This document shows, in pieces, positions 37,653-40,282 of a DNA stretch of 64,000 bases. Location of the stretch: NCBI RefSeq assembly GCF_027531545.1, contig NZ_JAPZSC010000001.1:434001-498000 (forward strand), in the 5' to 3' direction. This DNA comes from Silanimonas sp. Its GTDB lineage: Bacteria > Pseudomonadota > Gammaproteobacteria > Xanthomonadales > Xanthomonadaceae. Made by a program: the position numbers and the translations under genes. Within the stretch, counting starts at the first letter, position 1. Each line of letters starts with the position of its first letter. The notes below the pieces were generated by a model. That model did no database searches. It was not told the DNA's origin and saw nothing but the letters and a program-made list of their open reading frames with translations.

Positions 37653-38081
37653 TCAGGGCTGCAGGCTCTGCAGTTGCTTCAGCGTGGCAGCGTCCACCTC
37701 GACCGTCTCGCCGCTCGGGAGGGTCAGCGTGGCCGACTTGAACGCCTGCGTGGCCTGGTCCGTCTCGATGACGAGGCGGCCTTCGCCCTTCTCGCCGGTG
37801 ATGTTGAAAATCACGACGCTCTTGCCGGTCTGGCCGGCTTCCATCATGGCGCCGAAGTCCATGCCGGCATCGGTCACGGCACCGAAATGCTCCTGCACGG
37901 CGGGCACCTGCGCGACGATTTCCTTGCCGCCCGCGGAAACCGCCTTCATGCCGAAGTAGCCCAAGCCGACGACGGCGCCGACGCCGAGCAGGATCAGGAC
38001 GAGGCAGCCGCCCAAGAACCACGGCCAAAGCTTGCGCTTCGGCTTGTCGTTGGCGGGCGGCGGCGGAAAGGGCGTGCTCAT
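37653..38081 (-). CDS. Single-pass membrane protein, possibly Coa1-like
   Basis: A 142-aa protein. A Pro-rich basic cytoplasmic N-terminus (MSTPFPPPPANDKPKRK) precedes one TM helix (WFLGGCLVLILLGVGAVVGL, about residues 20-42) and an extracytoplasmic domain. The end of that domain (FNITGEKGEGRLVIETDQ ... ATLTLPSGETVEVD) resembles the cytochrome c oxidase assembly factor Coa1 (DUF1783) fold in its G-x-G-x(1,3)-V pattern. This resemblance is by eye and modest. No oxidase genes are nearby. It is convergent with priA and downstream of rpoH, which has its own terminator between. Confidence 0.55.
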   Translation of the reverse strand: MSTPFPPPPANDKPKRKLWPWFLGGCLVLILLGVGAVVGLGYFGMKAVSAGGKEIVAQVPAVQEHFGAVTDAGMDFGAMMEAGQTGKSVVIFNITGEKGEGRLVIETDQATQAFKSATLTLPSGETVEVDAATLKQLQSLQP

Positions 38082-38139
38082 CGGTTCGTTCCTTTGGGGG
38101 TTGGGAAAGGCCGCTGGATGCTAGCAGCCCGAAACGAAA

Positions 38140-38159
38140 ACGGCGCCCGAAGGCGCCGT
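38140..38159 (-). terminator. Rho-independent terminator of rpoH
   Basis: On the minus strand the stem ACGGCGCC / GGCGCCGT with a TTCG tetraloop is followed by TTTCGTTTC. This is a classic stem plus U-rich tail 30 nt past the rpoH stop. Confidence 0.8.
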
Positions 38160-38189
38160 CGTCGCATTACCCGGCTCAACGCCGTGGGC

Positions 38190-39050
<861 letters not shown>

Positions 39051-39083
39051 TCCTGCGTCCCTCGGGGGGTCATGGGGATCAAT

Positions 39084-39110
39084 TTAGCACTCGCCTGCTA
39101 CGAGTGCTAA
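39084..39110. promoter_or_regulatory. CIRCE operator (HrcA-binding inverted repeat) upstream of rpoH
   Basis: TTAGCACTC at 39084-39092, a 9-nt spacer, and GAGTGCTAA at 39102-39110: a perfect match to the CIRCE consensus (TTAGCACTC-N9-GAGTGCTAA). It starts 33 bp upstream of the rpoH ATG. On the minus strand TTAGCA inside the element and TAAATT at its promoter-distal edge could be -35 and -10 boxes with about 18 bp between, so HrcA would cover the promoter. Confidence 0.93.
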
Positions 39111-39253
39111 GCGTGCTGGAAGTTCCACAGCGTTCCATCGGCGGCAGCAATCCCGTGTCTCATCCGGCTTTGCGACCCGTCCTCGCCCGCCAGCGCAGGG
39201 TCCGCGCATACTGGGGCGACCGCCCGGGCAGGCGGCCATCCGGACGAGGACGC

Positions 39254-40282
39254 ATGCCGAAGAAAGCCGCCACGAAGGCCAAAGGGCCCTTGCAGATGAG
39301 CGACCTCGCGAAGATCGCGGGGGTCTCGGAGTCCACGGTCTCCCGCGCGCTGGCTGACCACCCGACGGTGGCTCAGGCCACGCGGGTGCGCATCAAGGCC
39401 TTGGCCAGCGAGCTCGGCTACCGCATCAACCCCATCGCGCGCAGCCTGCGCGCGGGGCGTTCCGGCGTCATCGCCGTCGTGGTGCCTCTGCAGCACGACC
39501 GCAGCGGGCACCTCACCGACCCGTTCATGATGTCGATGCTGGCCTATCTCGCCGACGAGCTGACCAGCCGCGGCTACAGCATGCTGCTGTCGAAGGCGGT
39601 GCAGGAATCGGGCACCTGGCTCGACGCCACGCTGGCGCAGTCGATCGCCGAGGGGCTGGTGATCATCGGCCAGAGCCATGAGCACGAGGCGATCAATGCC
39701 GCGGCCGAGCGCGGTGCGCCGCTGGTGGCCTGGGGCGCGCAGATGCCCGGCCAGGCCTACCCCTGCGTCGGCTCGGACAACCACGCCGGGGGCCTCATCG
39801 CCACCCGCCACCTGATCCGTCAGGGCCGCCGCCGCATCGCCTTCCTCGGCGACGAGCGGCTGCCGGAAGTGGCGCACCGCTACGCCGGCTACGTCGAAGC
39901 GCTGGCGACGGCGGGTGTCGACGACGATCCGCGGCGGCACCTGCGCGCGCCGTTCGACGCGGACGAGGCCTACCGCGCCTTCCGCGGCCTGCTCGCGCAG
40001 GACGTGCCGCTGGACGGCGTCGTCGCGGCTTCGGATGTGATCGCGATCAGCGCCATCCGCGCCCTCAACGACCGCGGCATCCGCGTGCCCCAGGACGTCT
40101 CGGTGGTGGGCTACGACGACGTGCCGCTGGCGCAGTACACGCACCCGGCGCTGACGACCGTACGCCAGGACCTGAAGCGCGGCGCCGAACTGCTGACGCT
40201 CTCGCTGATCGAACGCCTCAACGGCGGCGACCCGCGCCCGGCGCCGATCGCCCCGTCGCTGGTCATCCGCGAGTCGGCTTGA
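39254..40282 (+). CDS. LacI family transcriptional regulator
   Basis: A 342-aa repressor. The N-terminal HTH and hinge are MSDLAKIAGVSESTVSRALADHPTVAQATRVRIKA-type (residues about 16-65, with a basic leader PKKAATKAKG). The periplasmic-binding-like sensor domain includes GVIAVVVPLQHDRSGHLTDP, VGSDNHAGGLIATRHLI, IAFLGD, ASDVIAISAIRALNDRGIRV and VVGYDDVPLAQYTHPALTTV. The ATG at 39254 has GAGGA upstream; a GTG farther upstream lies inside the CIRCE element and is rejected. No sugar transport or catabolic genes adjoin it, so its targets are unknown. It is divergent from rpoH. Confidence 0.92.
   Translation: MPKKAATKAKGPLQMSDLAKIAGVSESTVSRALADHPTVAQATRVRIKALASELGYRINPIARSLRAGRSGVIAVVVPLQHDRSGHLTDPFMMSMLAYLADELTSRGYSMLLSKAVQESGTWLDATLAQSIAEGLVIIGQSHEHEAINAAAERGAPLVAWGAQMPGQAYPCVGSDNHAGGLIATRHLIRQGRRRIAFLGDERLPEVAHRYAGYVEALATAGVDDDPRRHLRAPFDADEAYRAFRGLLAQDVPLDGVVAASDVIAISAIRALNDRGIRVPQDVSVVGYDDVPLAQYTHPALTTVRQDLKRGAELLTLSLIERLNGGDPRPAPIAPSLVIRESA

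Follow-up and report, generated by a model that had tools for sequence, protein, structure and literature searches.

The rpoH upstream region

The window, a 64-kb stretch of DNA from Silanimonas sp., carries rpoH on the minus strand at positions 38190 to 39050. Its translation scores 407.3 bits against the curated equivalog model TIGR02392 (rpoH_proteo; cut-off 323.1), which identifies the product as the heat-shock sigma factor RpoH (sigma-32). A GAGGG sequence (39059 to 39063, minus strand), located 8 nt before the ATG, is the probable ribosome-binding site, and by eye a purine-rich stretch occupies this place in all seven relatives within the genus as well, being weakest in L009. On the 3' side of the gene is a terminator-like hairpin (38139 to 38160, minus strand), which is predicted from a consensus match only. 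We rejected as a feature a short upstream ORF of 8 codons (ATG at 39073) that overlaps the rpoH ATG, because the ribosome-binding stretch suits the ATG at 39050 and because the upstream ATG is not kept in the genus: by eye L005, L006, L007 and L009 lack it, L004 and L008 have it in frame, and L010 has it out of frame.

Upstream of rpoH lies a perfect CIRCE element, a putative operator for the repressor HrcA, at positions 39084 to 39110 (no strand assigned). This 9-9-9 inverted repeat, TTAGCACTC-GCCTGCTAC-GAGTGCTAA, matches the consensus at 18 of 18 arm positions, with 0 such matches expected, and is exactly 33 bp from the rpoH start codon (39050, minus strand). The initial annotation had described a perfect CIRCE just upstream of rpoH, spaced 33 bp from the sigma-32 start codon within positions 39050 to 39110, and in each of these particulars it was correct. 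No second match with three or fewer mismatches occurs in the 64-kb window, and none of 100 dinucleotide shuffles produced a match.

In the window, a LacI-family regulator gene (39254 to 40282, plus strand) is located between ung and rpoH. This gene also occurs beside rpoH in L010 and was not found in L004 to L009; it was probably inserted in a single branch of the genus. As CIRCE sits between the LacI-type gene and rpoH, which are divergently oriented, the operator could belong to the former and not to rpoH. We consider this extremely improbable, since L010 is the only one of the seven genus relatives with a LacI-type gene, and since L004, L005, L006, L007, L009 and loci of other genera retain the element with ung upstream and co-directional with rpoH. 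(In L006, ung and rpoH are about 1 kb apart, and neither ung nor a LacI-type gene was found in the L008 locus.)

Association of the element with hrcA

The initial annotation named the lack of HrcA from the genome as grounds for giving up its proposal that HrcA controls rpoH. In fact HrcA is encoded once (PF01628, 208.1 bits; TIGR00331, 304.1 bits, cut-off 197.2), and grpE is the next gene after hrcA. At up to three mismatches, the whole genome contains two CIRCE-like sites, the one preceding rpoH and another preceding groES. The groES site, TTGGCACTC-N9-GAGTGCTAG, has 2 mismatches, starts 96 bp and ends 69 bp before groES, and is itself preceded by a sigma-32-like motif (CTTGAAA...CCCC). By this CIRCE site, groESL is a predicted co-target of HrcA. 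No CIRCE was found near hrcA at up to four mismatches (L003 locus, 3,654 bases). Because there are only these two sites and none near hrcA, the visible HrcA regulon of this genome consists of groESL and rpoH.

HrcA and CIRCE control the groESL and hrcA-dnaK operons in Bacillus subtilis and other bacteria. The Silanimonas system has the same operator, the same repressor family and a groESL site, but differs in that the presumed target is a heat-shock sigma factor, and in that the operator appears to lie on the core of the promoter instead of in the leader.

A closer precedent is Geobacter sulfurreducens, for which a CIRCE before rpoH was predicted in 2004 (Table 8 and text of PMC545781); this is a perfect TTAGCACTC-N9-GAGTGCTAA at position -51 relative to the start codon. 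As in our genome, groESL of that species also has a CIRCE, but the hrcA-grpE-dnaK-dnaJ operon has one too, unlike the hrcA region described above; in the accessible part of that report we did not find CIRCE described as overlapping a promoter (PMC545781). The initial annotation had doubted that the link to rpoH is firmly established for this order, and in view of the Geobacter prediction the novelty is smaller than this doubt implied (PMC545781). CIRCE before rpoH is thus a kind of arrangement that is already known, and it is the promoter-operator architecture that is informative.

Among the titles and abstract openings listed for open PMC papers, no experiment on HrcA at rpoH was found; if the arrangement has been described before in this group, the most likely source is the survey of beta- and gammaproteobacterial regulons by Permina and Gelfand in 2003. 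Joint loss of the element with hrcA and overlap of promoter and operator were likewise not found in these titles and abstract openings, nor in the accessible parts of PMC545781, PMC6085468, PMC11764788, PMC3989490, PMC1978210 and PMC3224663. In those parts of PMC6085468, HrcA itself was not found.

Within the genus, CIRCE precedes rpoH in all eight genomes, in six as a perfect element and in two with one mismatch, and the eight elements have six different spacers. GGAACTT is present ahead of CIRCE in seven of the eight, the exception being L006. RpoH was detected in 286 of 299 sampled genomes of the order. From these we assembled 110 rpoH upstream regions, 30 as loci and 80 fetched separately, that cover every one of the 79 genomes sampled from the window's family plus 31 from families f2, f3, f10, f11 and f12, with none from f7 to f9. 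We counted as a site any match with up to three arm mismatches to the classic form or to a symmetric variant of it.

As the initial annotation had proposed, orthologous rpoH upstream regions of the order were scanned for CIRCE, and the outcome was positive: sites occur in 99 of 104 genomes with HrcA and in 0 of 6 without (Fisher p 2e-7), where G069 is taken as HrcA-less because it is missing from the HrcA positives. The five HrcA-bearing genomes lacking a site at this threshold are G128, G281, G285, G245 and G032. An element with a shortened spacer, TTAGCGCTC-N6-GGGTGCTAA, is found before rpoH in G128 (locus L128), and is possibly a broken operator.

The same association holds in a set of named gamma- and betaproteobacteria, with sites in 38 of 42 genomes that have HrcA and in 3 of 36 that do not (p 4e-14); 80 genomes with rpoH were fetched, of which 78 were used and 2 dropped because their upstream regions were short. 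Positives include Dyella, Nitrosomonas, Trinickia, Pandoraea, Polynucleobacter, Methylocaldum and Pseudoalteromonas luteoviolacea, and negatives include Vibrio, Pseudomonas, Shewanella and enterics. The four HrcA-bearing genomes without a site are L050, L076, L080 and L089. All three HrcA-less genomes with a site are metagenome-assembled and are therefore possibly incomplete. HrcA matches are weak in L084 (E 1.2e-11) and in L121 (E 1.1e-4, at a contig start). When CIRCE elements anywhere in the genome are considered at up to two mismatches, they are present in 152 of 174 genomes with HrcA and in 4 of 125 without (299 genomes; counted by eye, then tested), the latter being four HrcA-less genomes of the order that have some CIRCE match. 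As the genomes are related, the p-values overstate their independence and serve as a guide only.

Promoter elements and half-sites

The initial annotation also placed plausible -35 and -10 boxes over CIRCE. A simple sigma-70 scan of positions 38000 to 39400 found no promoter, and promoters were therefore inferred by comparison with relatives, with elements named after known sigma consensus sequences. An overlap with CIRCE did emerge from this comparison, in the form of two elements. The first is of sigmaE type, with a GGAACTT -35 (39120 to 39126, minus strand), whose GAACY spacing is conserved in the order, and a TCGTA -10 (39099 to 39103, minus strand), whose conserved TC also closes the left arm of CIRCE. 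Together these conform to the sigmaE-type pattern GGAACTT-N16-TCnnA, and the genome encodes sigmaE, with one protein above the curated cut-off (TIGR02939, 282.7 bits versus 236.15). The second is an extended -10, TGCTAAATT (TGC-TAAATT; 39081 to 39089, minus strand), in which TGCTAA is the end of the right arm and the final T is conserved beyond it.

Conservation of these elements was assessed in an alignment, anchored on the right arm, of 71 of the 76 rpoH upstream regions from HrcA-bearing genomes of the family, the other 5 having been left out because they have two or more mismatches in that arm. GGAACTT occurs about 34 nt ahead of the right arm (column shares 0.63 to 0.92), the terminal TC of the left arm has shares of 0.97 and 0.99, the A at -7 has a share of 0.90, and the T three bases past the right arm is present in 71 of 71 sequences. 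Across the order, GAACY-N16-18-TC, with TC as the end of the left arm, is found at 91 of 99 rpoH sites, versus 0.8% after shuffling of the 24 bases that precede the site. A similar sigmaE-type element is present at only 17 of 41 sites in the named genomes, so this part of the architecture is not general in that set. The final T is kept at 98 of 99 rpoH sites in the order and 40 of 41 in the named genomes, and at 15 of 28 groES sites. The comparison thus puts CIRCE at the position of the inferred promoters, and suggests that the operator overlaps two promoters, one of sigmaE type and one with an extended -10.

The rpoH P3 promoter of Escherichia coli is sigmaE-dependent and similarly has a GGAACTT-type -35 and a TC-containing -10 ahead of rpoH. 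However, E. coli has no HrcA (7 of 14 control genomes gave a match, and E. coli is not one of them), and it is not known to have a CIRCE there.

This overlap raises the question of whether conservation of the inverted repeat chiefly reflects its role as promoter sequence, with its match to the HrcA operator as a by-product. Genomes that lack hrcA bear on this point. G020, G158 and G172 lack HrcA, and the other 15 sites examined in their genus all belong to HrcA-bearing genomes. These three keep GGAACTT and GACTGCTAAGAT but no longer have the left arm or the 9-nt spacing. The two of them in which groES was searched, G020 and G158, have no CIRCE there (best matches with 9 and 10 mismatches). The two HrcA-less genomes of f11g32 likewise keep GGAACTT and TGCTAAAAT with no dyad.

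Counting half-sites over 250 nt upstream, a range in which the distant sites of HrcA-bearing L065 and L091 count as absent, we found the right half with its T in 8 of 39 HrcA-less upstream regions that have no dyad (0.9% with single-base shuffles) and the left half in none. The eight are three Pseudomonas loci, Gilvimarinus, G020, G158, G172 and L078, whose match is far upstream (-174) and perhaps unrelated. This retention of the right half suggests that it has a role in the promoter, and speaks for the by-product explanation. That explanation is nevertheless very unlikely to account for the whole element, because neither the left arm nor the 9-nt spacing is found where hrcA is missing, and because an 18-base dyad is more than a promoter requires. 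In the HrcA-less Pseudomonas and Gilvimarinus loci (L060, L081, L082 and L116), the half-CIRCE AGTGCTAnnnT stands at a position like that of an extended -10.

Changes in the left arm are not confined to genomes that have lost hrcA. A weakened left arm, CCAGCAGTC or CCGGCAGTC, is present in 16 HrcA-bearing genomes, comprising all 15 examined of g6 and g9 together with G238, and repression may be weak in these branches.

Operator variants and proposed regulation

Arm positions 7 and 21 vary among rpoH sites. The 99 sites of the order have G/C in 54 cases, C/G in 21, C/C in 16, G/T in 7 and C/A in 1, and G/G in none. Within the window's family the pair is G/C instead of C/G at 53 of 73 rpoH sites. 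In 13 of the 21 site-bearing genera of the family (L136 to L156 and L157 to L205) this G/C pair is part of TTAGCAGTC-N9-GACTGCTAA or of a form with a weakened left end. Of 30 genomes searched for a groES site, 28 have one, and there the pair is C/G in 14, G/G in 6, C/C in 5, G/C in 2 and C/T in 1. No clean operator switch was seen, in that groES sites of genomes with the CAGTC form at rpoH are mixed (C/G, C/C, G/G, G/C and C/T). As each HrcA-bearing genome has one HrcA match, a single repressor seems to accept both operator forms. The hybrid arms suggest that the change starts in the right arm, which is the promoter side.

These hybrids are also relevant to the idea that CIRCE works at the RNA level, as a hairpin or thermometer within the leader of rpoH. 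A transcript begun upstream of CIRCE would fold strongly (z -2.34). However, leaders starting near the inferred promoters include no more than one arm and do not surpass shuffled sequences in folding (z 0.56 and -0.36), the C/C hybrid arms break a stem pair at 16 of 99 sites, and occurrence of the element tracks hrcA. Because the likely leaders have ordinary folding energies we rejected an RNA thermometer, and a role for the element as RNA is very unlikely.

We consider it highly likely that the element is a true HrcA operator superposed on the rpoH promoter, through which HrcA would repress rpoH until GroEL is titrated. HrcA repression of rpoH, as the initial annotation suggested, is the best reading of the sequence comparisons, given hrcA in the genome, conservation of the element before rpoH and its presence following that of hrcA. 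HrcA activity depends on GroEL. An HrcA dimer bound to CIRCE would cover both the sigmaE-type -10 and the housekeeping extended -10, and at normal temperature would block transcription of rpoH. Once GroEL is occupied by unfolded protein, HrcA would become inactive. Repression would then be lifted from rpoH and groESL at the same time, and sigma-32 would go on to transcribe the remainder of the heat-shock regulon. Sequence comparison shows the element itself, hrcA in the genome, the overlap of promoter and operator, and the joint presence or absence of element and hrcA, whereas binding of HrcA, repression, signalling through GroEL and induction by heat are predictions of the scheme. As the site nearly always accompanies HrcA and is nearly always missing when HrcA is, the two heat-shock circuits probably act in series in this organism.

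Expression changes have been reported for Xylella fastidiosa under nitrogen starvation, where hrcA is four-fold up at 2 h with groESL down, and rpoH is two-fold up at 8 and 12 h (PMC3224663). This pattern, as it appears in the accessible part of that report, does not fit simple repression (PMC3224663).

Taking the observations jointly, we lean slightly toward a broader reading, in which HrcA control of rpoH is old and general among HrcA-bearing beta- and gammaproteobacteria, with one arm of CIRCE serving as the -10. When hrcA is lost, the left arm would decay while the right arm could survive as promoter sequence, so that fossil half-operators would now serve as rpoH promoters in Pseudomonas and some further lineages without HrcA. 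Across much of the family to which the window belongs, symmetric drift to CAGTC/GACTG would have affected rpoH, and groESL less so, such that one HrcA reads two operator dialects. If this is true, two classic heat-shock circuits that are usually taught as alternatives stand in series in many beta- and gammaproteobacteria. Moreover, a single promoter that determines how much sigma-32 is made would receive a cytoplasmic chaperonin signal (through HrcA) and, in this order, an envelope signal (through sigmaE). The dependence of sigma-32 on other controls in Pseudomonas-like and enteric lineages would then be explained in part by their loss of HrcA.

In several other genera of the family (L138 to L139, L149 to L152 and L177 to L188), the first ATG is by eye about 8 to 12 nt after the inferred extended -10. 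No ribosome-binding stretch is evident by eye at these same loci. The spacing suggests that rpoH mRNA is leaderless in these genera, though not in the window.
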